Made by a program: the position numbers and the translations under genes. A stretch of 64,000 nt of DNA, taken from contig CALSNM010000003.1 of the NCBI GenBank assembly GCA_943787725.1, positions 62,001 to 126,000 of the forward strand, in the 5' to 3' direction. Below, in pieces: positions 2,929 through 39,168 of the stretch. Source of the DNA: an uncultured Flavobacteriales bacterium. GTDB lineage: Bacteria > Bacteroidota > Bacteroidia > Flavobacteriales_D > Parvicellaceae. The notes below the pieces were generated by a model. The model did no database searches, was not told the DNA's origin, and worked only from the letters and a program-made list of their open reading frames with translations. Each line of letters opens with the position of its first letter. The stretch's first letter is position 1.

Positions 2929-5130
2929 TTATTGAGGATTCATGATAGTTCGTTTCATTCTCCAGTCTTTCGCTTCAGCAACATTGTACAATGCCTGAAT
3001 CAATCGATTGTCAATTTTACTCCTCAAATCTTCTGTTACAATTCCTTTATTTATGCTAATATCTTCGGACTTTACTGCTACAGTTCTACTTTCTACTAAT
3101 GTTAGATAAACGCCATTTTCTCCAACTATTACATCCGATAACTCACCTTGATTCAGCGCAAAAACTTCTCCAATAACTCCTGGGTTATTGCCAGGAATAG
3201 CTGGGAAAGCATTCATAGATAGTGTCAATTCTGCTTGTGCTGGAGCTCCACCTATTTTAGTAGCGGCATCTTCTAGAGAGACTGATCCAGCAAGTTGATT
3301 AGAAATATATTCAGCTTTTTTCTCTTTAAGAACCTCTGGCTCCATCATCGATTTAACAGATTCAAATTCAGGGTCTCCTTCATGTATAGCTTCAGTCAAA
3401 TAAGCTACCACATATTTTGTGTTACCTTCAATTAATTCAGCTTCCATTGTAGCACCAATTTCACTGTTGAATGCCCACTTTAAAATAGACATTGAATTAG
3501 GAAGGCTGCCCATTTGAGGATAGTCAATTCTTACGTTTTTAGCTTCCATTGATACTAGTCCCATTTCTTCTATTGCGGCTTCATATCCATTTTCTTTAAT
3601 GCCATAGTACAAAGGAGATCCTATCGCATCATAAATTGAATCACTTGTAGCTTTACTAGCTGTTACTTTGGTATCGCAAATAGCAATTAATTGAAACTCT
3701 CGGATCTCTCTCCCTAGTAATTGAAGGATATGTAGTCCGTTTTTGGTTTCAACGATTTCGAAAGATCCAATTGGTTTTTCAAAACAAAAAGATTCAAATT
3801 TTGTGTTGGAATGTATTTTTCCAATTGGAAACCAATCATGTCTTGCGTTATTATATTTAGAAACAACATCATCAGAATAGATACTTGCTAATTCTGAAAA
3901 TTTGCTGGTGTCTTGTTTAATTATTCTAAATAAACTATCCAGCGTCTTTCTCTTTTTTAATTTCACGTCATTTTCCATGCCGTTTGTTGAAAAGAAAATG
4001 TTTCTTGCAGTTGCTTCTTCTCTTGTTCCCGTTTCTCTAATTTTAACCATCATTACTTCTTGCCCGTCCGTAAAAGGGCCAATTACATTCCCTTGAGCTG
4101 CAGCACGGATTTGGTTGTCTATTTCAATTGGGAAGTCTCCTCCTTCGTAAGGCTCGTTCGGTAAAATTTGCGATATGTTAGAGGTTCCGTTGTTGTAGGA
4201 ATAAGAATTATTTGTAACAAACATTGAATCATTTTGAGAAGCTTTAAAGCTCCCTTGGTCTTTGCTTAGTTTTTTGATCGCTGAATTGATATCTCTATCA
4301 GAAGGTAATACGTCAAATGTTACATAGCTAAAGGACCTCATTTCAACTTCTTGTTTCCATTTTTTCTCAAATCTGTGTTCGTTGTAATATGCTATTAAAT
4401 CTTCTTCTGTTATGTTAATAACAGAATCGGGAACACTTGCAAACCCTTTATATAAATAGCTTACTGACGCAGTAGTTCCTGTTTCAGCGTACTGTCTATT
4501 TGCATCTTCAGTTGTTCCTGTAAAACCATACTTAACCATTCCTAGGTATTTTTCACGAATTCTTTCTTTCGTCAGTTGGTCTTCTAAGCTTTTTAATTGT
4601 TGTTTGTTCTCAAGGTTACTGCCGTTAATAAGAAGATTTAATCTTTTAATCAAAGAATCACGAACAAATACTTTATTTTCTTCCTGTCCGGTTTCAGGGT
4701 TCATTGTTCCATAAGAAAATTGACTTTGAAGAAAAGTAGCTGGTTTCATTCCGTACAATAAGCTTTTATTTAGCTCTCCCGGAGAAACTGCGATTCCCAA
4801 TTTTTCTAATTCAGCCCCATACAAAGTGTCTAGAATCATTTGACTCCAGACTTGGTTTTTTATTTGCTCAGATTCTTGCTCTGTCAAAATAGGGTCTTGT
4901 CCATATTGTTGTTTTTGTCCTCTGTAATTGTAAGAGGCAACTTCAACTCTGTTGTCGTATTTCCAGTCACTATCCATTATTTGCTCACCAAATATCTCGC
5001 CTATAGGTTGTTCTCCTCTTGATCCACCCCCAAAAAGAGTTTGTGGGTCAACAACAAATAGCACCATTGCTAGTCCGATAAATACGATTAGTATTTTTTG
5101 ATTTGATCTAATTTTTCCAATTAACGCCAT
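2929..5130 (-). CDS. PpiD/SurA-like periplasmic peptidyl-prolyl isomerase
   Basis: A 733-residue membrane-anchored foldase. Residues about 10-32 (KILIVFIGLAMVLFVV) are a single N-terminal membrane anchor. The next ~250 residues are a helical SurA-N-like chaperone region containing the typical segments 'IKNQVWSQMILDTLYGAELEK' in shortened form and many charged helices. A parvulin-type PPIase domain follows at roughly 370-475 (ARNIFF..., F..LA..YSDD, and the G.HILQL strand). The remaining C-terminal region has helical and beta segments as in Bacteroidota PpiD homologues. The length is usual for the family and the frame is intact. The expected role is folding of outer-membrane and secreted proteins at the periplasmic face of the inner membrane. 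In related genomes such a gene often follows a CNNM-type gene; here the CNNM gene is about 50 kb away. It is monocistronic and divergent from hemJ. Confidence 0.85.
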   Translation of the reverse strand: MALIGKIRSNQKILIVFIGLAMVLFVVDPQTLFGGGSRGEQPIGEIFGEQIMDSDWKYDNRVEVASYNYRGQKQQYGQDPILTEQESEQIKNQVWSQMILDTLYGAELEKLGIAVSPGELNKSLLYGMKPATFLQSQFSYGTMNPETGQEENKVFVRDSLIKRLNLLINGSNLENKQQLKSLEDQLTKERIREKYLGMVKYGFTGTTEDANRQYAETGTTASVSYLYKGFASVPDSVINITEEDLIAYYNEHRFEKKWKQEVEMRSFSYVTFDVLPSDRDINSAIKKLSKDQGSFKASQNDSMFVTNNSYSYNNGTSNISQILPNEPYEGGDFPIEIDNQIRAAAQGNVIGPFTDGQEVMMVKIRETGTREEATARNIFFSTNGMENDVKLKKRKTLDSLFRIIKQDTSKFSELASIYSDDVVSKYNNARHDWFPIGKIHSNTKFESFCFEKPIGSFEIVETKNGLHILQLLGREIREFQLIAICDTKVTASKATSDSIYDAIGSPLYYGIKENGYEAAIEEMGLVSMEAKNVRIDYPQMGSLPNSMSILKWAFNSEIGATMEAELIEGNTKYVVAYLTEAIHEGDPEFESVKSMMEPEVLKEKKAEYISNQLAGSVSLEDAATKIGGAPAQAELTLSMNAFPAIPGNNPGVIGEVFALNQGELSDVIVGENGVYLTLVESRTVAVKSEDISINKGIVTEDLRSKIDNRLIQALYNVAEAKDWRMKRTIMNPQ

Positions 5131-5295
5131 TTCTTTAAAAATTTAAGTGCGCGAATATACAATTAGTAGTTGACATATGAAAATAACATGATTAGTAATG
5201 TCAATATGCCTGCTGCATATAGCTTGCAGATCTTTTTTGCATAAAATGATGCATTGGCGAAAGTTAATTGGAATGCGAGTGTTACATTTGTCATT

Positions 5296-5835
5296 ATGAA
5301 TGATAGTTATAATATCATAAAATCTTTGCATATTATTTTTATGGTAAGTTGGTTTGCCGGATTATTTTACATAGTTCGGCTATTTATTTATCATGTTGAG
5401 GCTAAAGGAAAACAAAGTGATGAAAAGCGAATCTTACAACGTCAGTATAAAATAATGCAAAGACGACTTTGGTATATTATTACTTGGCCTGCTATGATTC
5501 TTACTGTTTTTTTTGGTGTTTGGATGTTGATATTGAAGCCAGAGTTATTAGATTTTGGTTATATGCAGGTGAAGCTTGTCTTTGCTGGATTGTTATTAAT
5601 TTATCATTTTATTTGTGATAAAGTGTTTTCTAATTTACAATTAGGTAAAGGAAATTATACTTCCAATAAGTTGCGAATTTGGAACGAAGTAGCAACCTTG
5701 TTTTTGGTGGCTATTGTTTTTATTATTGAGCTAAAAGATAGCCTCAATTGGGTTTACGGAGTTGTTGGGTTTTTTGGTGTTGCAATTCTCTTAATGTTGG
5801 GAATAAAAACGTACAAAAAGTATCGGTCAAAATAA
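5296..5835 (+). CDS. hemJ: HemJ-type protoporphyrinogen IX oxidase
   Basis: A membrane protein of about 180 residues in the UPF0093/HemJ family, which oxidises protoporphyrinogen IX to protoporphyrin IX in haem synthesis. Four or five hydrophobic helices are visible. Conserved elements are the N-terminal HIIFMVSWFAGLFY with its histidine (residue 12 from the chosen start), the basic loop QRQYKIMQRRLW, the lysine in MQVKLVF, and the LIYHFICDK segment. I chose the ATG at 5296 because homologues begin a few residues before the first helix; the upstream in-frame start at 5254 would add 14 residues without family character. It is divergent from the PpiD-like gene and upstream of purH. Confidence 0.88.
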   Translation: MNDSYNIIKSLHIIFMVSWFAGLFYIVRLFIYHVEAKGKQSDEKRILQRQYKIMQRRLWYIITWPAMILTVFFGVWMLILKPELLDFGYMQVKLVFAGLLLIYHFICDKVFSNLQLGKGNYTSNKLRIWNEVATLFLVAIVFIIELKDSLNWVYGVVGFFGVAILLMLGIKTYKKYRSK

Positions 5836-5973
5836 AAGAAATCCTCCTTATTGCTGCGGTGTTTTAAACATTCGTTTTTAGTTATGAACAAAGGGCTTTT
5901 ATGCTCTTGAATTTCGGTAGATTCTTAGTAAAATTGCATCCATTAAATAATTAGTTCAAAATAGCTATTTACC

Positions 5974-7505
5974 ATGGGTGCAGAGAAGAAAATAAAAAGT
6001 GCATTAATCTCCGTTTTTGACAAGTCAAACTTGGAGCCAATTATTAATAAATTAGACGCTTTGAACATTACGATGTATTCAACAGGTGGCACGCAAAGCT
6101 TTATTGAGGGGTTAGGGATTACTGTCATACCGGTTGAGAGCTTGACGAGTTATCCATCGATTTTAGGAGGAAGAGTAAAAACGCTTCACCCAAAAGTTTT
6201 CGGGGGAATATTAAGCAGGAGAGAATTAGATAGTGATGTTGCTCAATTAGAAGAATACGACATTCCTGAAATAGACTTAGTGATAGTTGATTTATACCCT
6301 TTTGAAGATACTGTTGCATCAGGTGCAGACCATTCTGATATAATTGAGAAAATAGATATAGGCGGTATTTCTCTTATTCGTGCAGCTGCGAAAAATTATA
6401 AAGATGTTGTTATTGTTCCTTCAAAAGAGCAATATTTACCATTACTTAAACTATTTTGAATAAAAAGGAAGGTGTAACGAGCGTAAATGATAGGAAAGGT
6501 TTCGCAAAAGATGCTTTTAATGTTTCTTCACATTACGATACGCATATATTTAACTATTTCCGAGGAGAAGATGATTCGTGTATTGAAGCAAAGTATCAAG
6601 GATTCATCAGTCTTAAGATATGGTGAAAACCCACATCAAAAAGGAATTTTTTATGGAAATCTGGATGAATTGTTTACTAAGCTTCATGGAAAGGAGCTTT
6701 CATATAATAATTTGTTAGATGTTGACGCTGCTGTTCAATTAATGAATGATTTCCAGGACGAAGATCCAACGTTTGCTATTTTAAAACACAACAATGCTTG
6801 TGGCTTAGCAACTAGAGAACTCATTGGTTGAAGCTTATAAAGATGCCTTGGCAGGTGATCCTGTTTCTTCTTTTGGAGGAATATTAATTGCCAATAGAGA
6901 TATGGATGTTGCACAGCGAATGAGGTGAATCAACTGTTTTGTGAAGTAGTTATTGCGCCTTCATATTCGGATGAGCTTTAGATGTTTTGAAGCAGAAAAA
7001 GAATCGTATTATATTGATTCAAAAACAATTGAATTTGCCTACATCGCAGTTGCGAACATTGTTAAACGGAGTTTTATATCAAGAAAAGGATTTGATTACA
7101 GACAAGAAAGAAAACTTTGAATCAAGAACAAAAACGGATCCAACGGCGCAGGAGCTATTGGACCTAGAGTTTGCTAATAAATTGGTAAAACACACAAAAT
7201 CGAATACAATTGTGTTGGCTAAAAACGGTCAATTACTAGCAAGTGGTACAGGACAAACATCGCGCGTTGATGCTTTGCGTCAAGCAATTCATAAGGCAGA
7301 GTCATTCAACTTTGATTTGAACGGAGCTGTTATGGCATCGGATGCATTTTTTCCTTTTCCGGATTGTGTAGAGATTGCTGGAAACGCTGGTATAACATCT
7401 GTAGTTCAGCCAGGAGGGTCTATTAAAGATGAATTGTCAATAAACTACTGCAACAATAATAAAATTTCTATGGTGTTTACCGGAAATAGACATTTTAAGC
7501 ACTAA
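5974..7505 (+). pseudogene. purH: Bifunctional AICAR transformylase/IMP cyclohydrolase, frameshifted
   Basis: PurH catalyses the last two steps of IMP synthesis. The N-terminal cyclohydrolase part (from 5974, ALISVFDKSNLEPII..., LGGRVKTLHPKVFGGIL) and the transformylase part (RYGENPHQKGIFYG, ILKHNNACGLA, SDAFFPFPDCVE, the C-terminal RHFKH) are all recognisable in order. Together they span the ~510 residues expected. The frame breaks near 6457, 6565, 6822, 6918 and 6980, and every intervening piece gives good PurH sequence in another frame, for example FCEVVIAPSYSDE at about 6940-6975. Loss of purH would give purine auxotrophy, and the pattern is single-base gain or loss without decay of the coding content, so sequence error is more likely than a true pseudogene. 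Confidence 0.9.
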
Positions 7506-24763: not shown

Positions 24764-25797
24764 AAAAGAAAATTTTTAATAGTCTCAAGATTTTATTGCC
24801 TATATTAGTTGGGTTTTATATCTGCTGGTACTTTTGGACAAGTTTCGATGACAAAGCAAAAGTTGCTTTTATTGATGTTTTTAAGGAAGCTAATTATTTC
24901 ATTCTTTCTATTTCTTTATTAATTGGATTAATTAGTCATTTAAGTAGAGCATACCGTTGGAAGTATATGCTAAGGCCTTTGGGCTTTGAACCTTCCCTCA
25001 AAAATTCTTACAATGCCATTATGATAGGCTATATTGCTAATATGGTTGTTCCCAGAATGGGCGAAGCTTCGAGAGCAGCAGTTTTAAAAGGTACGGATGG
25101 TGTCCCATTTGATAAAGGGTTTGGAACGATAGTAGCGGAAAGAGTTATTGATGTCTTATGTTTGGCGATTGTTGCGGGTCTTGCCGTATTAATCAATTTC
25201 GACAACATGGATGATTTATTGAAGTTGGCAGAAGGAATTGATTCTACATCAGAAACTGGAACACCATCAACTCCATGGATTAAGTACACAATATTTGGCT
25301 TGTTTGGATTGGGTTTACTAGGGTTTATGTTTTTGTATTTTAAGAGGCCTAATTTTAAAGATAAGTTTTGGGGGTTTGTCAGCGGATTTGTTGATGGGAT
25401 AAAAACCATATTTACCATGAAAGATAGATGGGGTTATTTATTTCATACCTTAATAATCTGGACATGTTATGTGTTAATGTTTTGGATTACATTTTATGCT
25501 TGGGACGAAACTAGTCTTATGAGAGCGGATGGTATATTGTCTGCTTTTATAGCAGGAACGATTGGTTTTATTATTGTCCAAGGCGGAATAGGGACTTATC
25601 CGATAATGGTTGGAGCAGTACTGACATTCTTTTTAGCTCAACAAGGACTCGAGGCAACGCCGGAAAGAGTGTCTAGTCATATTGGTTTTGGAGCCTTGGT
25701 ATGGGCTACGCAAACACTGTTAATAGTATTCTTGGGTTTGCTTTCATTAGGGATGGTTCAGGTAAGTAAGAAGAAAAAAGCGAACATAGCTAGCTAA
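24760..25797 (+). CDS. UPF0104/AglD-like lysylphosphatidylglycerol synthase TM-family protein
   Basis: A 345-residue integral membrane protein of the 'lysylphosphatidylglycerol synthase TM region / UPF0104' family, probably a lipid flippase-like protein without an aminoacyl-transferase domain. About eight helices are seen. The conserved N-terminal region includes [18 protein letters not shown] and [18 protein letters not shown]. The central region has [19 protein letters not shown] and the C-terminal half has [19 protein letters not shown]. The TTG start at 24760 overlaps the panD stop. The last codons encode [12 protein letters not shown]; a near copy of this 3' end recurs at 28177-28214, beyond the VWA gene (see the repeat entries). 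Confidence 0.87.
25757..25791 (+). repeat. 35-bp direct repeat, copy 1 (flippase 3' end)
   Basis: These 35 bases encode the last residues of the flippase-like protein and match 28177-28211 at 34 of 35 positions (C at 25785 versus G at 28205). The copies are 2,420 bp apart in the same orientation and bracket the VWA gene. Similarity continues beyond the repeat at lower identity: CTCAAAA at 25854 and TTAAGA at 25869 recur with nearly the same spacing after copy 2. Confidence 0.9.
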
Positions 25798-25833
25798 TTC
25801 CTTATTAATTTCTAGATTGCTTTAGTGTTTTGG

Positions 25834-25852
25834 CGCTTATTTTGAATAAGCG
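25834..25852 (+). terminator. Hairpin downstream of the flippase-like gene
   Basis: CGCTTATT (25834-25841) pairs perfectly with AATAAGCG (25845-25852) across a TTG loop, about 37 bases after the flippase stop. It lacks a strong T-run, so termination is only possible. A counterpart hairpin (CACTT/AAGTG, 28255-28273) occurs at the equivalent place after repeat copy 2. Confidence 0.4.
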
Positions 25853-25920
25853 GCTCAAAATGGTCCTATTAAGAAGCTATTTTTCTTTATTTTTATTGTT
25901 CTCCATAAATAAACGCTCCT

Positions 25921-28189
25921 ATGAAATCTATTTTCTTCGCTTTTTTCCTACTTGCAAGTATGTTAACCCTTGCTCAAGGAAATATTATCTATCACCTACA
26001 AGTACAAGGGCCAAATGGTGATGGGTTGTCAAATATTCAAGTGATTGCAACTGAATCAAAAACATTAGCAGAAGTTAAAGGAAAAACCGATGTAAGCGGT
26101 AAGCTTAAATTGAATATGGATAATGGGAAAGAGTGGCTTCTTTCTGTTGGAGAATTGAAAAACACTATCCAAGTCAAAGCAGTAGACTATAGTATAGCGG
26201 AAATCGGAAAAACGTATATTTATGATGTGGCGGCCTTTCTTAGAAAGAAGACTCAAATACTGGATCGCTCGCAAATTTCTTTTCTAGAGAAAAAACAACT
26301 GGTTTCAGCAAAGGATGTTCTTTTGGAATCGGAGTGTATGGTTATAGTAAAAGTGGCTACTCCCCAAGGAAAAGCACTAAATAATATTTCGGTAAGTGTT
26401 ATTAATTTAGAAGATAAAATAAAATATACAGCTAAATCAGATATTAATGGAAAAGCTGTTTTCAAAGTCCCTAACCAAAGTAAATATGATATAGATATAG
26501 AGTCATTTTTAAATTATACCTACTGTGATTTTGGTAAAGGATCAATTAGAAGAACTATTGACGCAGAATTTGTTCCTATGACAACAAAGGAGAAAGTAGT
26601 TAATGATACAGTTTACCATAAGGTAAACCAATATGCCAAGCCAACATCTTCAAGAGCCTTGATTAAACTTACCATAACAGGGGGAAAAAGTAAAGGGATA
26701 AACGAGCCTGTTTTTTTACGCCAATTGAATAGCTCTAAAGTGTATGCAGTGACGACGAACTCCCTGGGAGTAGCATATGTTTTACTTCCAATAAAGGAAG
26801 TTTTTATGGTTGATTTTAATTATCAAAAAAGTGTAGATGTGATTAGTCTAACTCACAAAACAGGACTAGTTACAGGAGATTATTCGATTTATTATAATCC
26901 AGACCCAAGGTTAGAATATCCAGAAAAGTTTATTCCTACTTCAGACAGATTGTTTATAGAAGATTTCAATTCCTTTTTAAAGGAACAGTTTGTTAAGCCT
27001 ACCGATAGACCATTCAATATAAAAGTAAAGAGTATGTTAAAGATTAACAAAAATTCAAAAGAAGCACTTTTTGAAATGACGTTGGCAACGTCTAGTAATT
27101 ATGGAAAAGGTAACCGGATGCCGCTACACCCTTGTGTTGGTTTTAGATAAGAGTGGGTCAATGTATGACAATAATCGAGGAGAGTCATTAAAACTAGCAT
27201 TATGGGAAATTGGAAGTAGTTTAGAGGAAGGGGATGTAGTCTCTATTGTGTTTTTTGATATGGGTATTTCTGCTTATTATACAATTAATAAGGACTATTT
27301 GTCAGTCTTTGAAAAAATTATTGAGATGTACATGCCAGGCGGAGGAACAAATATTTTTGGCGGTCTGAAAAAAGGGGTGGAATTAATTAAAAATAATATA
27401 GATGATTCTCGAGCAAATAAAATTATTCTATTAACAGATGGTTATGGGACGTCTGAAACAAAAAACATTACTGATTTTATCGAATTAGAGAGTAAGGAAG
27501 GAATAGATTTTTCCTCAGTAGGTGTTGGAGAGGGGTTTAATGAGTCTCTTTTGCGACTTATCGCTCAAAAAGGCAATGGGTCTTATTATAGGGCTAGAGA
27601 GGTAGAAGAAATTTCTAATGTATTTGCTGATGCAGTTAATAGCTCATTTAGCTACGTAGCAAAAGACTTAAAAATCGAAATCTTTTATCATAAGAAAATG
27701 ATATACTCTAAATTATACGGTTATCCTTTGGAAGAAGTAAAAAATAATCAACTTTCAATAAACATAAATAAATTGCCATGTAATATAAATGAAATTTCAT
27801 TTATAAAGTTTCTACTGGATAAGGCCGATAAAACAATCGAAGATGCGCCTTTGAGAATAAAGGTTAGCTATTTTGATCCTACTAAACTTGAGCAAATAGA
27901 ATATGAAGAAGAAATACCTCTAATGTGGTCTGATGAATCTGAATTGGAATGGAACGTAGGAAATGAAGAAAAAAGATTGTATGCAATTGCAATATTAAAT
28001 CAATCTTTAAAAGTAATGGCGGAAGCGCATGGGAACAATAATACTAAAGATGCGATAAAAGCCTTAAAAAGCGGGATCCAACAACTTAAAGAGATTTTTC
28101 CTGACGCAAAACCTAAAAAGGTGAAAGCTTTATTTGAAGAAGTAAATAAATATTTACTCTTGTTTCAAAAAATAGATTCAGGTAAGTAA
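25921..28189 (+). CDS. Secreted VWA-domain protein with beta-sandwich modules (one frameshift)
   Basis: A ~755-residue exported protein. It has a signal peptide (MKSIFFAFFLLASMLTLAQG) and then three related beta-sandwich modules of the carboxypeptidase-regulatory/Ig-like type at roughly 20-85, 135-200 and 240-310 (for example VIATESKTLAEVKGKTDVSG; SVINLEDKIKYTAKSDINGK; VFLRQLNSSKVYAVTTNSLG). A von Willebrand A domain follows, with the MIDAS motif LDKSGSM, then GGGTNIFGGLKKGVE and IILLTDGYG. The C-terminal ~190 residues are beta-rich then helical. The frame breaks once between about 27100 and 27150, just before the MIDAS. The stop codon lies inside repeat copy 2, so the last residues (SGK) come from repeat DNA. 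Function is unknown; metal-dependent adhesion or complex assembly at the cell surface is typical of the domain. Confidence 0.82.
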
Positions 28190-28214
28190 GAAGAAAAAAG
28201 CGAAGATAGCTTAA
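28177..28214 (+). repeat. 35-bp direct repeat, copy 2 (remnant flippase 3' end)
   Basis: The first 35 bases match 25757-25791 with one difference. Read in the flippase frame the copy encodes [11 protein letters not shown] and then a TAA at 28212-28214, so it still looks like the end of a flippase gene although no flippase precedes it. The VWA stop (TAA 28187-28189) lies within it. A hairpin (CACTT 28255-28259 with AAGTG 28269-28273), CTCAAAA (28275) and TTAAGA (28290) follow as after copy 1. Confidence 0.9.
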
Positions 28215-28434: not shown

Positions 28435-30195
28435 TTAAACTTTTTCTTCAATTTTTAAGCCTAAACTTAATTCTTTTAATTGACTTGCATCAACTCTAGA
28501 AGGAGCATCAATCATCATATCTCTACCACTATTATTTTTAGGGAAAGCTATAAAATCACGGATACTTTCTTGTCCGCCAAATAATGAGCATAATCTATCG
28601 AAACCAAATGCTAAACCACCATGGGGTGGAGCTCCGTATTCGAAAGCGTTCATTAAAAAGCCGAATTGAGCTTCTGCTTCTTCTTTTGTAAACCCTAGAA
28701 GGTCAAACATTCTTGATTGAATGTCTTTGTCATGGATACGAATAGATCCTCCACCTACTTCAACACCATTGATGGCTAAATCGTAGGCATTTGCTCTAAC
28801 TTCTCCCGGGGCAGAATCTAATTTATCAAAATCTTCTTTCTTTGGTGATGTAAAAGGGTGGTGCATTGCATGGAACCTTTCAGAATCTTCATCCCATTCT
28901 AATAATGGGAAATCCATTACCCATAAAGGTTTAAATACATTGGGATCCCTTAATTCAAGTTGATCGCCCATGTGCAAGCGCAAATCATTCATTTGCCCTT
29001 GAACTTTATTTGTTTCACCGCTTAATACAAGCAGTAAGTCACCAGCTTTAGCACCACATTTATCAGCCCAATCTTTTAAATCCTCTTGCGCGTAAAACTT
29101 GTCTACTGATGATTTGAAAGAGCCATCTTCGTTGCACTTTACATATACTAATCCCTTCGCTCCAATTTGCGGACGACGAACCCAGTCGGTTAACTTATCC
29201 ATTTGTTTTCTAGAATATGAAGCACATCCTTCTGCACAAATTCCAACAACTAATTCTGCGGAATCGAATATTGCAAATCCTTTGTTCTGCGTTAAAGCGT
29301 TTAAGTTATTTAACTCCATTCCAAAGCGAATATCCGGCTTGTCAGATCCATATCGTTCCATGGCATCAGCATATGTCATTCTTGGGAAATCATCAGAAAA
29401 AGAGACGCCTTTCAATTCTTGAAATAGCTTTTTGATTAACCCTTCGAAAGTATTCAGAATATCCTCTTGGTCAACAAAAGCCATTTCACAATCTATTTGC
29501 GTAAACTCAGGTTGCCTATCTGCTCTTAAATCTTCGTCTCTAAAACATTTCACAATCTGATAATACCGATCATATCCGCTAACCATTAAAAGTTGCTTAA
29601 AGGTTTGTGGAGATTGTGGTAAAGCATAAAATTCACCTGGATTCATTCTACTCGGAACAACAAAATCTCTTGCTCCTTCTGGTGTAGATTTAATCAAGTA
29701 TGGGGTTTCAACTTCAATAAAATCCAATGAGTCTAAATAAGTTCTGGCAGCTAACCCCATTTTATGACGCAAAATCATATTATTTTTCAATGGGTTTCTT
29801 CTTAAATCTAAAAAACGATATTGCATTCTCAATTCTTCTCCTCCGTCGGTTTCATCCTCAATAGTAAAAGGAGGAAGTTTAGCTTCCTTTAAAACAGTTA
29901 ATTCAGTAACATTAATTTCGATTTCCCCAGTTGGTATGTTTTTATTCTTGCTACTTCTTTCAGTAACTATTCCTTTTGCTTGAATCACAAACTCACGCCC
30001 AAGCTTTTTTGCTTGTTCGCAAAGCTCAGTGCTAACATCGTTGTTGAATGCTAATTGCGTTATTCCATATCGATCTCTCAAATCGACAAACGCCATTCCT
30101 CCTAAATCTTTTGATCGTTGCACCCAACCGCAAAGTGTAACTTCTTGGTTTGCATTTTCAATTCTCAATTCTCCGTTCGTATGTGTTCTGTACAT
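28435..30195 (-). CDS. aspS: Aspartyl-tRNA synthetase
   Basis: A 586-residue class IIb aminoacyl-tRNA synthetase of the bacterial type. The N-terminal OB-fold anticodon-binding domain ([20 protein letters not shown]) is followed by class II motif 2 ([18 protein letters not shown]). The GAD insertion domain comes next (residues ~280-420), and motif 3 is near the C-terminus ([15 protein letters not shown]). [20 protein letters not shown] is the conserved substrate loop. The length is normal and the frame intact. It is monocistronic; a TACATTTG box on the minus strand (30222-30215) lies 20 bases upstream of the start and may be the -7 element. Confidence 0.97.
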
Positions 30196-30320
30196 TCTGT
30201 TTTTTTAAGGATAGCAAATGTACAAATTTCAATGTATTAAGTGTCTTCTATTTATTCCAGAAATTGAACCGTGTACAATAAATTGCTTATTATTGTAGTA
30301 ATCCTTAAAAAAAGAAAAAG

Positions 30321-30563
30321 ATGAAAAAGAAGTTAATAGGTGTTTTGGTATTTCTTATTGCCATGTTTGGGGTTATGTATTTTATGGGAGTTTTTGAAGC
30401 AGGAGAAGCAACTGAGGAGGATAATCAAGTAGGAGATGAAATTGGTGAGGATCCAGAAACTGATAAAAAACTAGAAGAAGCAACCGAATATGATGTATGG
30501 AGTGAAGATTCGACTGAGTTAGGAGTAGGAGAAGAAGATTTTGATCCAGAATCATTGCTTTAA
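30321..30563 (+). CDS. Small membrane protein with acidic tail (1)
   Basis: An 80-residue protein with a basic start (MKKKL), one membrane helix (residues ~5-25, GVLVFLIAMFGVMYFMGVF) and a strongly acidic, low-complexity tail rich in E and D to the C-terminus (DFDPESLL). The topology suggests an N-terminal anchor with the tail in the periplasm. The start at 30321 follows an A/G-rich leader. The next gene begins nine bases later and has the same architecture, so the two may be an old duplication or functional partners. I do not recognise a family. Confidence 0.7.
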   Translation: MKKKLIGVLVFLIAMFGVMYFMGVFEAGEATEEDNQVGDEIGEDPETDKKLEEATEYDVWSEDSTELGVGEEDFDPESLL

Positions 30564-30572
30564 ATTTTAATT

Positions 30573-30806
30573 ATGACAAAGAAAAAGAAATGGATTAATG
30601 CCCTTATTTTTATTGGAGGACTGATTGTGTTTTTGTTTTATTATTTCGAAGACAAGGCTGATATCGACAAGGTTGAGAAAGAACAAGATAAAAGTGCGTT
30701 AGATTCTGCAGAGGTAAAGCTGCCCGATTTGTCAGAGGATTTGGCGGAATTTGAAGAAAACAATTCAAATGTGGAAGAAGACTCTATCGCAGGGGATAGC
30801 CTATAA
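30573..30806 (+). CDS. Small membrane protein with acidic tail (2)
   Basis: A 77-residue protein with the same layout as its upstream neighbour: basic start MTKKKKW, one membrane helix (residues ~8-26, NALIFIGGLIVFLFYYF), and an acidic tail containing LPDLSEDLAEFEENN and ending AGDSL. Little sequence identity with the first protein is visible outside this pattern. It is convergent with the dioxygenase gene, 48 bases from its stop. Function unknown. Confidence 0.68.
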   Translation: MTKKKKWINALIFIGGLIVFLFYYFEDKADIDKVEKEQDKSALDSAEVKLPDLSEDLAEFEENNSNVEEDSIAGDSL

Positions 30807-30854
30807 CAATTACTTACAATACAAAAAACTGATTGCCTCAATTTATTCCCCCGA

Positions 30855-31799
30855 CTAATATTCTTTTATAACTTTCAGGTAATGAACTTGGACATCATTT
30901 ATTTTTAGGGCTATAAAATAATGGCCAGGAAGAATATTGGAATCAGGTTTCCATTCGGCTGTGTATTTTTCCGGTTTAAGCATTATTTCTTGCAAATTCG
31001 CAACTAATCTCCCTTGAATGTCAAATACTTGGAGGCTTACTTTTGCGTCCTGAAAAACACCATAATTTATTTGAATAAAATCTGAAAATGGGTTTGGATA
31101 TATTTTGTAAATCATGCCCATAGATGCACGCATTTCTTCAATTCCAATAGGATCACCTAATCCATCTATAACAATATCCCAAGTTGCTTCTTTTTGTCCT
31201 AAACTGTTGGTTGTAACCGGCACAATTCGGTGGGTTGCATCATATGTGCCACTTGAAATAGAGGCTGCGGCGTCAGCTGGTATGTCTGAGTCACCTTGGA
31301 AATAAAGTTGTGTAGTTAAAATAGGGAAACCAGGAGGAGTAATTTTAAGATGGATATGGGACGGACGATAAGCACTTCCGTTTAAATATTTTCCAGGGTA
31401 TATTGTCTCAAAAAGATAAAAACCTTGACTATTACTGGTTACGATCCCTCTAAGATTGAATCCTGTGTTATCGTATGCGCCTGCATCGTTTGCATGCCAA
31501 ATATCAATAATAGCTCCAGCGATATATTTTGTGCAATCCAGGTTATGTACTCTACCACTTATTATAAACCGAGTTCCCGGCTCACTTGCTGCAGCAAGTT
31601 GATTATTTAAAATTGAGGGTGCATTAGCCGAATAAAAAGGACCTTGACCATAATAATCTTGTGTCGTCGGATTGCAATTTGCTACAGGTTGACTGGAGCT
31701 TTCGTCATTTAACGCAGCTTTCACTGCACTCGGCAAAGTTACTGCAGCAATTGCTGCTAATGAAGTGTTTTTTAAAAATTGGCGTCTATCATTTTTCAT
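30855..31799 (-). CDS. Secreted intradiol ring-cleavage dioxygenase-like protein with T9SS sorting domain
   Basis: A 314-residue protein related to the beta subunit of protocatechuate 3,4-dioxygenase. The N-terminus (MKNDRRQFLKNTSLAAIAAV) has an RR-QFLK-like Tat motif and an AxA-type cleavage region. The non-haem iron ligands of the family can be placed: Tyr109 in DIWHANDAGAYD, a second Tyr at 134 or 138 in IYPGKY, and His148/His150 in YRPSHIHLK. From about residue 228 a second domain begins (IYKIYPNPFSDFIQIN) that matches type A T9SS C-terminal sorting domains and ends VHYLKVIKEY. The enzyme is therefore expected outside the cell or on its surface. Substrate unknown; such secreted homologues need not act on protocatechuate. 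The start overlaps the stop of the upstream lipoprotein gene (ATGA), so they are coupled. Confidence 0.88.
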   Translation of the reverse strand: MKNDRRQFLKNTSLAAIAAVTLPSAVKAALNDESSSQPVANCNPTTQDYYGQGPFYSANAPSILNNQLAAASEPGTRFIISGRVHNLDCTKYIAGAIIDIWHANDAGAYDNTGFNLRGIVTSNSQGFYLFETIYPGKYLNGSAYRPSHIHLKITPPGFPILTTQLYFQGDSDIPADAAASISSGTYDATHRIVPVTTNSLGQKEATWDIVIDGLGDPIGIEEMRASMGMIYKIYPNPFSDFIQINYGVFQDAKVSLQVFDIQGRLVANLQEIMLKPEKYTAEWKPDSNILPGHYFIALKINDVQVHYLKVIKEY

Positions 31800-32458
31800 T
31801 TAGTTGCTTCTCCCTCACCAATTTCATCTCCTATTCCATTCATCATCATTTCTCCCATTAGTCCTTGCATTTCTTTCATTGCTGGACAGTCTTCCAATTC
31901 TTTTTCCATTTCTTTTCCTTTAGCTTCTCTTTCTTCGTCGCTAAGTCCTTCCATTTCTTTTTCCATATTTTCTCCCATTTTCTCACAAGCTTCAATCTCA
32001 GATTTATACTTTTCTTCAATTTCTTTGATTTTAGCTTCATCTTGACCAGCTTCACTAGCTTCTTTCATCATTTCAACTGTTGTTGTAATACAATCACAAG
32101 GGGAGAGTTCATCTCCTATTCCATTCATCATCATTTCTCCCATTAGTCCTTGCATTTCTTTCATTGCTGGACAGTCTTCCAATTCTTTTTCCATTTCTTT
32201 TCCTTTAGCTTCTCTTTCTTCGTCGCTAAGTCCTTCCATTTCTTTTTCCATATTTTCTCCCATTTTCTCACAAGCTTCAATCTCAGATTTATACTTTTCT
32301 TCAATTTCTTTGATTTTAGCTTCATCTTGACCAGCTTCACTAGCTTCTTTCATCATTTCAACTGTTGTTGTAATACAATCACAAGGGGAGAGGGCACCGC
32401 CACAAGATGAAAGGAACATTGCAGAAACTACTCCTGCAGAAACAAATAAATTTTTCAT
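31796..32458 (-). CDS. Lipoprotein with perfect internal tandem duplication
   Basis: A 220-residue lipoprotein. The signal peptide ends in a lipobox (AMFLSSCGG). The mature part is two identical 95-residue units, each starting LSPCDCITTTVEMMKEASEA, with a long acidic/lysine helix and a conserved DCPAMKEMQGLMGEMMMN ending. Each unit has three cysteines (CDC plus a CEKMGE cysteine, and a DCP cysteine). The helices are probably coiled coils. It ends IGEGEATK and its stop overlaps the start of the dioxygenase gene. I do not recognise a family. Identity at DNA level means either a very recent duplication or an assembly artefact; a single-unit protein of ~125 residues would be a normal small lipoprotein. 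Confidence 0.8.
   Translation of the reverse strand: MKNLFVSAGVVSAMFLSSCGGALSPCDCITTTVEMMKEASEAGQDEAKIKEIEEKYKSEIEACEKMGENMEKEMEGLSDEEREAKGKEMEKELEDCPAMKEMQGLMGEMMMNGIGDELSPCDCITTTVEMMKEASEAGQDEAKIKEIEEKYKSEIEACEKMGENMEKEMEGLSDEEREAKGKEMEKELEDCPAMKEMQGLMGEMMMNGIGDEIGEGEATK
31823..32392. repeat. 285-bp perfect tandem direct repeat
   Basis: Bases 31823-32107 and 32108-32392 appear identical throughout. The period is 285 bp (95 codons), so the lipoprotein frame is kept. The copies abut with no spacer. Confidence 0.95.
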
Positions 32459-32535
32459 ATTTTTTTAAATTAAATTAGTTAACTGTGGCTAATATATAGT
32501 TGTTCGGAGAAAAATAAAATAAATGGAGGGTTATT

Positions 32536-34194
32536 TTACAACTCTTTAATAGCCATTTGTATATCATTATCGAATGGAATCGAAATAAAAAAACGAGCTT
32601 CCTCATCCCATAAGTAGGTTGCTAACTCTGATTTTAGCTGGTTTTTAATTCGGTTTTTGGATGCATTTATTCCGAATAAATCCTTTGGGACCCCGTGGTT
32701 TTTCGATGCATTCTCAACAAAATCATTAAACATTTGTTCAGTAACAGAATACTGCGTGTTAAATGCCTTAACATCTTGGTATTGCAATTTTTCTCTGTTT
32801 TTATCAACATAGTCAAAACAAAAATCTCTATAAGCTGCGGTATAAGCAAGTGAAGATAAATATAAGGAGGAGCCTGAGGTGTCTATAGGAATGAAAATGT
32901 CAGGCATAATTCCTCCTCCGCCATATACGGTTCTGCCTTCTGGAGTTGTATATTTTTCTGCATTTTTAAATATTATACTATCCAATTCTTGCAGTTCGCC
33001 GTTTTCATAGCGATTCATAATATCATTGTAATAGTCTATCCCGCTGCCATAAGGTTTTTGAATACACCTTCCCGTCGGAGTATAATAACGAGAAACAGTA
33101 AGTCTCATTTCCGATCCATCTTCTAAATTTATTGGTTGTTGCACCAATCCTTTTCCGAAAGTCCTACGCCCCATTATCAAACCCCTATCATTGTCTTGAA
33201 CAGCACCACTGACAATTTCACTTGCAGAAGCTGTACCGCTATTCACAAGGATAACCAGTTCATTGCTTTCAAAGTTTCCGTATCCAGAAGAAAAATATTC
33301 TTTCTTCTGCTGATGCGCTCCCTCAGTATAAACGATGGATTTTCCTGCAGCTAAAAATTCATCAGCAACACTTGTTGCTCCATGCAAATAACCTCCTCCG
33401 TTGTTTCTTAAGTCAAAAACCAGTTTAGTCATGCCTTCTGCTTTTAAATCAGCTACAGCATAAGCAAACTCTCTGTCAGTATTGTTGGAAAAGTTTTTAA
33501 GCCTAATATATCCTATGGTGCTATTTATCATAAAGGAAGCGTCTATTGAGGGTAAAGGTATTGAGCCTCTCGTGACTTCTATATCCTTTGGGTTTGAGTT
33601 GGATTTATTTAATATTTTTAACCCAACTTTTGTTCCAAATCCCCCTTTCAAAAGCCCATGAACATCTTCAATTTTCAATCCAGTTCCTGCTATTTTATCT
33701 CCATCAACTTCAAGTATTCTATCACCTGCTTTTAGACCCGCTATCTCCGAAGGTCCATTGGGAATAATATTGGTTATCATCAAGGTGTCACGAAGAATAA
33801 TAAACCGAATTCCTACACCTCCAAAATGACCTTGTAATTCTTCATTTTGCCTTTCTACGTCTTTAGCTGATATATAAGCGGAATGCGGGTCTAGTTTTCC
33901 GAGCATACCGGAAATAGATGTTTCAATTAATTCTTTTCTGTCTACGGAGTCTACATAACGAGACTCAATTACATCTAACACATGATTCAATTTAACAACC
34001 TGTTCTTCTTGCGTTATTTTTTCTTGAGAACGAAATTGACCCGCGCCAATGAAATATGTGAATGCAGAGCAAATTCCGATTAATAATGGAGTTAATATAA
34101 GTAGCCAATTGTTTGAATTATCCTTCTTGTTAAGTGTGTCTTTTGAGGACGAGATATAACTACTAACTTTTATTTCTTTGTATTCTTCTTCCAT
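32536..34194 (-). CDS. S41-family C-terminal processing protease
   Basis: A 552-residue periplasmic tail-specific protease. There is one N-terminal membrane helix (residues ~30-50, LLILTPLLIGICSAFTYFIG). A PDZ domain lies at about 95-185 (GGVGIRFIILRDTLMITNII, GLKAGDRILEVDG). The S41 peptidase core has the serine in VNSGTASASEIVSGA (about residue 320) and the lysine in RRTFGKGLVQ (about 345), the expected Ser-Lys dyad spacing. GYIRLKNFS and [12 protein letters not shown] are the conserved oxyanion-hole strands. Its ATG overlaps the stop of the dCMP deaminase gene by one base, so they are co-transcribed. Confidence 0.93.
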   Translation of the reverse strand: MEEEYKEIKVSSYISSSKDTLNKKDNSNNWLLILTPLLIGICSAFTYFIGAGQFRSQEKITQEEQVVKLNHVLDVIESRYVDSVDRKELIETSISGMLGKLDPHSAYISAKDVERQNEELQGHFGGVGIRFIILRDTLMITNIIPNGPSEIAGLKAGDRILEVDGDKIAGTGLKIEDVHGLLKGGFGTKVGLKILNKSNSNPKDIEVTRGSIPLPSIDASFMINSTIGYIRLKNFSNNTDREFAYAVADLKAEGMTKLVFDLRNNGGGYLHGATSVADEFLAAGKSIVYTEGAHQQKKEYFSSGYGNFESNELVILVNSGTASASEIVSGAVQDNDRGLIMGRRTFGKGLVQQPINLEDGSEMRLTVSRYYTPTGRCIQKPYGSGIDYYNDIMNRYENGELQELDSIIFKNAEKYTTPEGRTVYGGGGIMPDIFIPIDTSGSSLYLSSLAYTAAYRDFCFDYVDKNREKLQYQDVKAFNTQYSVTEQMFNDFVENASKNHGVPKDLFGINASKNRIKNQLKSELATYLWDEEARFFISIPFDNDIQMAIKEL

Positions 34195-35817: not shown

Positions 35818-38800
35818 TTAAGGGGCGATACTGCAACCACAATTACTCTTCATAAAGCTATTGGATTTTTGGTGCCAATCAAAAGCGGCATTGTATTTAG
35901 AATTTTCCCAATAAAACTTTTTTCTAGTTTTTGGCTCGTTTCCGACTTCATTCATTGTTTCTGTGTCGTAAAGCCTACCATTAATCATGGTGTAAATTAT
36001 GGTGTTGGAATTCTGAATGTTATCCAATGGGTTTTTATCCATGATAATTAAATCTGCCAATTTACCTTCTTTTAGGGATCCAATATCTTTGGACATTCCT
36101 ATATAATCAGCACCGTTTATTGTTGCGCAGCGAAGTGCCTCCATATTTGTCATGCCGCCTTGCTGCAAGCTCCATAGTTCCCAATGCGCTCCAAGCCCTT
36201 GAAGTTGACCGTGGGCACCGAGGTTTACTTTTACTCCGGCGTCGCTTAATTTTTTACATGTTTGAGAAACCAAAATATGTCCATTGTCATATTCCTCTTG
36301 TGGAATCATCATTCTATGACGCGCTCTTGAAGCAATAATTTGACGCGGATAGAATTGTAATAACTTTTTATTTTCATAAACATTGGTGTTTTGATACCAA
36401 TAGAACTCCGCATTTAAACCACCGTAATTTACAATTAGAGTAGGAGTGTAGCCTGTTTTACTTTGGCTCCATAATTTCACAATGTCCTTGTAAACTGGAG
36501 CAACTGGGATGTTATGCTCTACACCGGTATGACCATCTAATATCATTGTCATGTTGTGATAAAAAGTTGATCCTCCCTCAGGAACTACGAATATGTTTTG
36601 TTCTCTTGCTGCTTGAATAACTTGTTGTCTTTGATCTCTTCGTGGTTGGTTATAGCTTTTAACCGATAATGCTCCAAATGCTTTGGTTCTTCTAATTGAG
36701 GAACGTGCATCATCAAGATTATTGATGACAGCTTTAAAATCTCCATCTCCTCCATATAAAATAAAGCCGGTTGAATATAGTCGTGGTCCAACGAGTTCAC
36801 CGCTTTTGACTAATTCAGAGAGTGCAAATACGGTTTCTGTATTTGCAGATGGATCATGAGCTGTTGTAACTCCGAAAGCTAAATTGGCGTAAAATTGCCA
36901 ATGTTTTTGCGTTGTTAGGCCATATCGAAATGCACCAATGTGCGCATGAACATCTACAATTCCTGGCATGATGGTTTTCCCTCCCATTTCATATACTTTA
37001 GCACCTTTGGGAATGTTAACTTCCTCAGCTAATCCTATCTTTTCAATACGATTTTCGTTAATTACAATGGTTCCATTTTTAATTACTTTGTCACCTTCCA
37101 TTGTAATAATTGTTGCGCCTTTAAAAACAATTTTACCAGTGGGCTTATCTGTGTCTTGCACCAACTTAACACGAATTCCAGTTGTATCAATAGGAGCTAT
37201 TGAATCTGGAGAATTCGGTAGGTAGGTAAATCGCTGATCAATATCGTTTTCAAAGTATTCTTCTCCCAATGTCCACCTGATTTTTTTTGAATCAGCTGAC
37301 CAATGTAAATTGATTCCAGCGTCCCTTGCTATTTGCGAAACAGGTATAGAATTCGTTTTATTATCAAGGTTTAATGGTTTCCCTGTATGTGGAATAGGAG
37401 CAATGTATACCTTATGCAAATGAGAAAAAGCGATCCATTTATTGTCAGGACTAGGCACTAATCTGTTTGCATATTTTGAAGTTATATGCGTTTTTTCATC
37501 AACCCCATTAAGGTCAACACTATGTAGCTCCTTGGTTAGTTGACCAAAGTAGGTTCCTCCAGTTTGAAAAAACACACGTTTTTGATCTTTAGTAAAAGTC
37601 GGATATTGTCCTTGCTCTGCTATCAAGTAAGGGTTTGTTCCGTTAGCATCCATAATGTATATGCCAGCATTTTTTGCAAATGAATGCCCTTGCTCATTGT
37701 TTCCAGATTCCTTTAAATAAACAATTTTTGATCCATCTGTACAATAAGAAGGAGTCCTAAAGATTCCTTTTTCTGAGCTTAACTTAACAGGAATACCTCC
37801 CTTATAAGGAATTGAATAAATTGCTCCTAACTCTTTGTCGTTCCATGTAACATAAACGATTGTTTTGCCATCGGGAGAAAAACTGGGTTCAAACTCAAAG
37901 TCTGTGCTTTCAGTTATTCGTTTTGGTTTGCCATTCGGTAATTGTTTTTTCCATAAATATCCGAGAGCATTAAAAACTAAAGTTCTTCCATCTGGCGAAG
38001 TCACGGCATGTCTTATCACTTTTGCGGTAAATTTGTCTGGAGATACTGGGTTTTCAAACTCCAATGCTTCGGCTATTTTTAAATGTACATCTACTGAGAA
38101 CGGAATTTCTGTAATGGTGAGAGATTCTATATTGATACTGTTGATCTTTCCGCCAGACCAAATCACAATGCTTTCATTGTCAGGCATCCAGTTAAACCCG
38201 GTGTAAACCCCAAAGATAGCCCAAGCTTCTTGTTGGTCTTTATTTAATTTGTCGTAAACAGGCCATTCTTCACCAGTGGCCAAGTCATGGATGTAGAGTA
38301 CAGATTTAGCATCTATTCTTTTAATAAAAGCAAGTAGTTTTCCATCTCTAGAAAGTTGTGGTCGAGCAGCTCCGCCTGGACCTCCTGTAATGGTTTTAAT
38401 TTCTCCATCCTCAAACGCATATCTTTTGATTACATAAATCTGTTTATTTGGATCTTTGTTATATTGAAAAAATCCGCCCGGATACATATCCTCGCTATAA
38501 TACAGATATTTTCCATCCGGGGAAATACAGGGTTCATTCACATCTTGTTGCTCATTTTTCTTTTTGGTCAACTGCAATCCACTTCCTCCAGTAATATGAT
38601 ACATCCACATTTCACCAGCACCAGCTGACCGCTGAGATGTAAAGTGTTTGCGCGCAATTAATGAATTGCCGTCACTTGTCCAAACAGCATTATTTACTAA
38701 TCTAAAATCTTCTTTTGTAATTTGTTTGGCTTCAGAACCATCAGCGTTCATTACCCAAATATTATCTCCTCCTCCAGCATCACTGGTAAAAGAAATCTTC

Positions 38801-39099
38801 TTCCCGTCAGGGCTAAACCTTGGTTGGATTTCGAACGGAATACCTTCCCGTAACACTTTTGCTTTTCCTCCTGTTATCGGCATGATGTAGATGTCACCAA
38901 CCATATCAAAAACAATATAGTTGCCATCTGGACTTACGTCTAAATTCATCCAGGTCCCTTCATCTGTGGTAAATTTCAAGTCCTTATAATTCCATTCTCC
39001 TTTTGGATTAGAAACATCCCATTTCTCTTTGTCTTTTTTATTTTGGGCTGTTCCCACAAAGGTTAAACCTATAAATAATGAGAATAATACATTTTTCAT
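35818..39099 (-). CDS. Secreted beta-propeller/amidohydrolase fusion protein
   Basis: A ~1,093-residue exported protein. I start it at the ATG at 39099 because MKNVLFSLFIGLTFVGTAQ is a normal signal peptide; the longer in-frame ATG at 39150 precedes it by 17 residues. The first ~600 residues contain TolB/WD40-like PD40 repeats (FSPDGKKISFTSDAGGGDNI, ISPDGKYLYYSED, FSPDGKTIVYVTW, SPDNKWIAFSH). From about 670 an amidohydrolase domain follows, with PGIVDVHAHIGAFRYGL near residue 715, GVTTAHDPSA, a central HNIPVAP region and GSLKEGKLADLIIMDKNPLD. Such fusions are known as Tol-Pal-like amidohydrolases. The C-terminus ends NCGCSIAP. The substrate is unknown; dipeptides or cyclic amides are possible. 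Confidence 0.87.
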   Translation of the reverse strand: MKNVLFSLFIGLTFVGTAQNKKDKEKWDVSNPKGEWNYKDLKFTTDEGTWMNLDVSPDGNYIVFDMVGDIYIMPITGGKAKVLREGIPFEIQPRFSPDGKKISFTSDAGGGDNIWVMNADGSEAKQITKEDFRLVNNAVWTSDGNSLIARKHFTSQRSAGAGEMWMYHITGGSGLQLTKKKNEQQDVNEPCISPDGKYLYYSEDMYPGGFFQYNKDPNKQIYVIKRYAFEDGEIKTITGGPGGAARPQLSRDGKLLAFIKRIDAKSVLYIHDLATGEEWPVYDKLNKDQQEAWAIFGVYTGFNWMPDNESIVIWSGGKINSINIESLTITEIPFSVDVHLKIAEALEFENPVSPDKFTAKVIRHAVTSPDGRTLVFNALGYLWKKQLPNGKPKRITESTDFEFEPSFSPDGKTIVYVTWNDKELGAIYSIPYKGGIPVKLSSEKGIFRTPSYCTDGSKIVYLKESGNNEQGHSFAKNAGIYIMDANGTNPYLIAEQGQYPTFTKDQKRVFFQTGGTYFGQLTKELHSVDLNGVDEKTHITSKYANRLVPSPDNKWIAFSHLHKVYIAPIPHTGKPLNLDNKTNSIPVSQIARDAGINLHWSADSKKIRWTLGEEYFENDIDQRFTYLPNSPDSIAPIDTTGIRVKLVQDTDKPTGKIVFKGATIITMEGDKVIKNGTIVINENRIEKIGLAEEVNIPKGAKVYEMGGKTIMPGIVDVHAHIGAFRYGLTTQKHWQFYANLAFGVTTAHDPSANTETVFALSELVKSGELVGPRLYSTGFILYGGDGDFKAVINNLDDARSSIRRTKAFGALSVKSYNQPRRDQRQQVIQAAREQNIFVVPEGGSTFYHNMTMILDGHTGVEHNIPVAPVYKDIVKLWSQSKTGYTPTLIVNYGGLNAEFYWYQNTNVYENKKLLQFYPRQIIASRARHRMMIPQEEYDNGHILVSQTCKKLSDAGVKVNLGAHGQLQGLGAHWELWSLQQGGMTNMEALRCATINGADYIGMSKDIGSLKEGKLADLIIMDKNPLDNIQNSNTIIYTMINGRLYDTETMNEVGNEPKTRKKFYWENSKYNAAFDWHQKSNSFMKSNCGCSIAP

Positions 39100-39168
39100 A
39101 TACTTAATTTGGATTGCTAATTTACTATTTTTTAAGAAGTGGACCACCAATAGTGCGCAAGGTCCTGT

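Follow-up and report, generated by a model that had tools for sequence, protein, structure and literature searches.

The window analysed here, a 64-kb stretch of one contig (G000:C3) from a 2.73-Mb genome in 29 contigs that is estimated to be 82% complete, contains a small lipoprotein gene in which one domain is encoded twice, without a single difference between the copies. Judging from a single draft assembly, the gene probably arose by a real, recent, and derived rearrangement of a one-unit precursor, and template switching in the course of DNA replication or repair is the best explanation. The locus appears to be a clear case of a known type of DNA-copying accident, not a new system. The features concerned are the following.

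30321-30563, plus strand: gene for a small acidic protein with one N-terminal hydrophobic stretch, the likely donor (ORF list and congener matches)
30402-30413, plus strand: likely donor of tract 2, in the same small acidic protein gene (exact match)
30430-30450, plus strand: likely donor of tract 1, in the same gene, of a small acidic membrane-type protein (exact match)
30855-31799, minus strand: dioxygenase-fold protein with a Tat-type signal and a type IX secretion C-terminal domain (domain matches)
31796-31799, minus strand: ATGA, overlap of the lipoprotein stop with the dioxygenase start, which are 144 and 155 nt apart in G002 and G003 (ORF list and congener comparison)
31796-32458, minus strand: lipoprotein gene, 220 aa (leader with putative lipobox LSSC, two identical 95-aa units, and tail IGEGEATK; ORF list)
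31802-31813, minus strand: tract 2 recipient, 12 nt, equal to 30402-30413 on the plus strand, with one base common to tract 1 (exact match)
31813-31833, minus strand: tract 1 recipient, 21 nt, equal to 30430-30450 on the plus strand (exact match; best non-self match in its own genome)
31823-32107, minus strand: second (3') 285-bp unit, same as the first (Tandem Repeats Finder and sequence comparison)
32108-32392, minus strand: first (5') 285-bp unit (Tandem Repeats Finder and sequence comparison)
32402-32458, minus strand: signal peptide to the lipobox cysteine, residues 1 to 19, of which at most one or two vary among four congeners
32536-34194, minus strand: S41 C-terminal processing peptidase, the upstream neighbour that anchors synteny with G001 to G003 (domain matches and synteny)

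The two units adjoin each other (31823-32107 and 32108-32392), and a letter-by-letter comparison finds 0 differences in 285 positions, which bears out the perfect 285-bp tandem duplication claimed in an earlier, sequence-only reading of this DNA. Tandem Repeats Finder (maximum period, 500) reports three arrays in the 64-kb window, with periods of 285, 25, and 12, and the 285 array scores highest by far. Both units are held in frame by a single 220-aa ORF (31796-32458, minus strand) composed of 22 leader residues, two stretches of 95 residues, and 8 tail residues; the earlier claim that the units keep the frame and double the mature lipoprotein domain is thus also correct. Each unit encodes four cysteines, not three as first counted, and those of the first copy (residues 26, 28, 63, and 96) are invariant across an alignment of 11 relatives. 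The identity between the units extends by 0 bases on either flank, i.e., there is zero microhomology at the tandem junction. The junction (32102-32116) also forms a small inverted repeat, GGAGA-TGAAC-TCTCC, possibly by chance.

A protein search of 60 genomes, including that of the window (G000), gave a match at E <= 0.01 in 10. Three congeners belonging to other species (G001, G002, and G003) have one unit each, adjoining the same S41 peptidase gene; the dioxygenase gene lies on the other side of the lipoprotein gene in G002 and G003 and, at this locus, is absent from that place in G001. At E <= 0.001, a profile built from 11 relatives (A1) has matches in 13 of the 39 family genomes and 106 of the 299 order genomes, and at E <= 1e-5 in 7 of 395 genomes of the class; these sets overlap and include G000. 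Among the matches listed for the 39, 299, and 395 genomes, two profile matches in one frame occur in the window ORF only. With one unit in G001 to G003 and no other two-unit frame among the matches listed, sequence comparison argues that the domain doubling is derived and recent; the window's species is represented by one genome, and the ancestral one-unit state is deduced from those of other species. The very recent event suggested by the sequence-only reading is supported both by the congeners and by the lack of differences between the copies, which limits their divergence to about 1% at most (rule of three, our own arithmetic). A contig search returned one locus, CALSMU010000004.1, which is the G002 record; the window's own record was possibly excluded. 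Literature searches on template switching with tandem duplication and on intragenic lipoprotein duplication returned, among the matches listed, nothing on this locus.

The duplication is combined with local changes that the earlier reading had missed: the spacer present in G002 and G003 is gone, together with its hairpin, and a templated tail has been inserted. The distance from the lipoprotein stop to the dioxygenase ATG is 144 nt in G002 and 155 nt in G003, whereas in the window the second unit runs directly into the tail IGEGEATK and a TGA stop that overlaps the dioxygenase ATG. Stretches of 84 to 85 nt past the stop in G002, G003, and G001 form hairpins followed by T-rich sequence (-14.8, -15.8, and -21.3 kcal/mol, respectively), and shuffles fold equally well in 2, 1, and 0 cases of 200. 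Two stretches at the window junction give -8.7 and -7.8 kcal/mol and are equalled or bettered by 76 and 12 of 200 shuffles, respectively. Because a terminator consensus scan recognises the spacer hairpin of G003 and not that of G002 or G001, the label "terminator" rests on folding; the same scan reported nothing in 31796-31822, and within the gene it marked a weak site of five pairs that spans the tandem junction (32116-32102). Promoter-like patterns occur in the G002 and G003 spacers (four in each scanned region, against a shuffle mean of about two), and the dioxygenase promoter may have been lost along with the spacer.

The new tail matches a neighbouring gene. Both tracts are inverted relative to the small acidic protein gene 1.4 kb away, in which their donor sequences (30402-30450) lie within 49 nt, as exact tracts of 21 and 12 nt. 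The first 8 nt of tract 1 are the lipoprotein gene's own end (GGAGAT is also found in G002), and the new part is 13 nt (31813-31825); in tract 2 the new part is 11 nt. When the neighbourhood (29801-31780 and 32461-34000) was dinucleotide-shuffled 1000 times, matches reached at most 11 nt for the 13-nt part and 10 nt for the 11-nt part, and hence 0 of 1000 attained the observed length in either case. For the whole 34-nt tail, in which 19 nt are matched, 300 shuffles gave a maximum of 12, and control stretches gave 7 to 13 in 292 of 295 cases, the remaining three lying inside the repeat itself. Matches to the small gene are full-length in G002 and G003 and partial in G001, and in the G002 copy GEAT and GDEI keep the order that they have in the window, as judged by eye. 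This conservation in congeners, with the order kept, points to the small acidic protein gene as the likely source of the tail.

In the mechanism proposed, synthesis would leave the lipoprotein gene end at GGAGAT and continue on the small gene, where GGAGATGAAATTGG is present, then move to another site within that gene and return immediately ahead of the dioxygenase start. Either in the same event or soon after, the stretch that runs from CTCTCCCC to GGAGATGAA would be copied twice. Two switches are needed because the order of the tracts is reversed in the lipoprotein tail. Both 285-bp units end in GAA, which are donor letters belonging to tract 1, where G002 has CAG; the doubling would therefore have come with or after the insertion. 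In comparison with G002, 6 bases (GGAGAT) are common at the first switch, and 1 base is common between the tracts; at the return to native sequence 2 bases (CT) are common with G003 but not G002, and at the tandem junction there are 0. Convincing microhomology is therefore limited to one of the four junctions.

Microhomology-mediated break-induced replication has been put forward as a model for such rearrangements (PMC2621351), and complex events in starving Escherichia coli are interpreted as repeated template switching (PMC3161906). The window resembles these cases in its combination of local duplication, deletion, and short inverted inserts from nearby and in its one 6-base junction. It differs in that the change is far smaller (hundreds of bases), the tandem junction lacks microhomology, and the event is known from sequence alone. 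If correctly read, the locus is an unusually legible record of bacterial gene restructuring, and perhaps of regulatory change, by template switching, in which the donor still matches its copy. Simple tandem duplication alone was rejected, as it leaves both the missing spacer and the tail unexplained. Also rejected was a misjoin at the common 21-mer, as the lipoprotein-gene sequence flanking the 21-mer differs from the donor flanks.

A variant of template switching divides the change into two steps, in which templated replacement of the spacer would first give a one-unit gene with a new tail and ordinary tandem duplication would follow later. This order of events is a serious contender, to which we give slightly less than an even chance. 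The tandem junction without microhomology may be independent of the other junctions, and an insertion that preceded the duplication would give both units their donor-derived GAA ends, but two rare and recent events would be required at almost one place. Only tentatively do we propose the opposite, that one multi-switch replication event at once doubled the domain, erased the terminator, and created a translationally coupled operon, and on balance this is doubtful. If the one-step event were true, the window would capture the birth of a two-domain protein and a new regulatory link before the copies, or the donor and its insert, had diverged by a single base.

An artefact of assembly or consensus, in which the second copy is false and the true gene consists of one unit plus the new tail, would be in keeping with the exact identity of the units, the zero microhomology at their junction, and the draft state of the genome (82% complete, 29 contigs). 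Furthermore, some other arrays have broken frames (L100, L129, and L134) that may be residual sequencing errors. Nevertheless, an artefact is unlikely. Tandem Repeats Finder, applied to 864 kb (40 stretches of 20 kb plus the window, with periods of >= 20 considered), finds resolved arrays of up to 4.6 kb elsewhere in the assembly; a period-915 array has 0 mismatches in 1389 positions compared, and there is no N in the scanned parts. In addition, the unit keeps the frame (a 1-in-3 chance), and inverted tracts with a source 1.4 kb away form part of the change. Long resolved arrays are hardly obtainable from short reads, which suggests an assembly based on long reads that would span the 570 bp. 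The sequence-only reading had left a recent event, an assembly error, and homogenisation side by side; the first stands, the second is disfavoured by the resolved arrays and inverted tracts, and the third is disfavoured by the congeners and the donor ends of the units.

The product of the rearranged gene has a predicted lipoprotein signal peptide with a lipobox and lipid cysteine (MKNLFVSAGVVSAMFLSSC); LSSC is taken to be the lipobox, and Cys19 the lipid cysteine, according to the general lipobox rule. Among the 11 relatives, Ser18 is invariant and Cys19 nearly invariant. Pfam and NCBIfam gave nothing above the cut-off for the window lipoprotein and only weak matches below it, no Pfam family was matched at E <= 0.01 by more than 1 of the 11 relatives, and a profile search against solved structures gave no match at E <= 1. 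An AlphaFold2 model from a two-row alignment shows each unit as four helices (mean pLDDT, 70.6; pTM, 0.43), with 0 matches at E <= 0.001 in a Foldseek search of the PDB. The predicted product would bear a pair of Cys-rich helical domains on a single lipid anchor. The adjoining gene, previously read as a secreted dioxygenase, does encode a dioxygenase-fold protein with export signals, and it is predicted to form one operon with the lipoprotein gene, with co-transcription and translational coupling.

Copy-number variation of the repeat, raised in the sequence-only reading as a possible means of variation, would proceed by recombination between identical units and alter an exposed protein; such a locus is compatible with an origin by template switching. 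Perfect 285-bp direct repeats should be unstable, and the domain is strongly diverged between allele types (pN of 0.333 for G000 versus G003 and 0.283 versus G001), with the signal peptide kept. However, one unit number is known in the species, from one genome. Surface-exposed lipoproteins of Bacteroidota typically have an acidic export signal just past the lipid cysteine, although the rule varies by genus. The residues following Cys19 are GGALSPCDC, with no acidic run, so that surface exposure is unsupported, and such a contingency locus appears quite improbable. Homogenisation would yield identical units too, but an old duplication held identical by gene conversion is very hard to credit, given that 0 of 3 congeners have two units and that both units end in donor sequence absent from G002.

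The rearranged gene has a body unusually similar to that of G002. Synonymous differences between G000 and G002 are 0.293 for the S41 peptidase gene, 0.156 for the dioxygenase gene, and 0.420 for a gene that, from reading its sequence, we take to encode aspartyl-tRNA synthetase. The value for the lipoprotein body (32108-32458) is 0.032 (2 of 62.3 sites), and the chance of so few synonymous changes is 1.6e-7 at the S41 rate but no smaller than 0.002 at that of the dioxygenase gene. Over the first 282 bases of the unit, 3 differ from G002 (98.9% identity), compared with a mean identity of 91.1% over 61,026 aligned bases of the window (alignments of <200 columns left out); 1.5% of 3979 overlapping 285-base positions reach 98.9%, the repeat itself included. 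G001 and G003 carry another version of the lipoprotein domain. Near-identity to G002 between diverged neighbours, together with this other version, suggests that the gene body was likely exchanged between lineages.

Other differences from the congeners were seen nearby. In G002, the dioxygenase frame stays open for 20 codons and is then interrupted, within the signal sequence (L003 1207-1356, G002:C4), and the open stretches of G003 are shorter than those of the window (263 codons for the dioxygenase and 463 for the S41 peptidase). The region 25772-28206, including the ORF at 27101-28189, is mostly without a syntenic counterpart in G002 or G003, and a 1110-aa ORF (35818-39150) has a counterpart at this place in G002 and none in G001 or G003.

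Side-by-side genes for Cys-rich lipoproteins of the same kind are found in three other genomes of the order (L095, 5025-6904, G019:C24; L096, G055:C71; and L097, G046:C168), as listed from ORFs of <260 aa that contain both a C.C motif and a cysteine near the N terminus. In G019 (L095), 5025-5816 and 5467-6257 align at 83%, and one G019 match of the family carries internal stops. These clusters share with the window the side-by-side repetition of a four-cysteine domain, but they consist of whole diverged genes with their own signal peptides, whereas the window has an identical domain within one gene. The locus thus points to a small Cys-rich lipoprotein family of this order, as yet without a name, that grows by tandem duplication between and within genes.

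Intragenic tandem repeats of exported proteins, of which several occur in large proteins of this genome, are likewise of a period divisible by three, but the window has two units only, in a small lipoprotein. The large exported-looking proteins with long tandem arrays are on G000:C1 and C7 (L100, L110, L113, L117, and L134). The periods of seven translated arrays are all divisible by three, and one array consists of two and a half identical 915-bp units.
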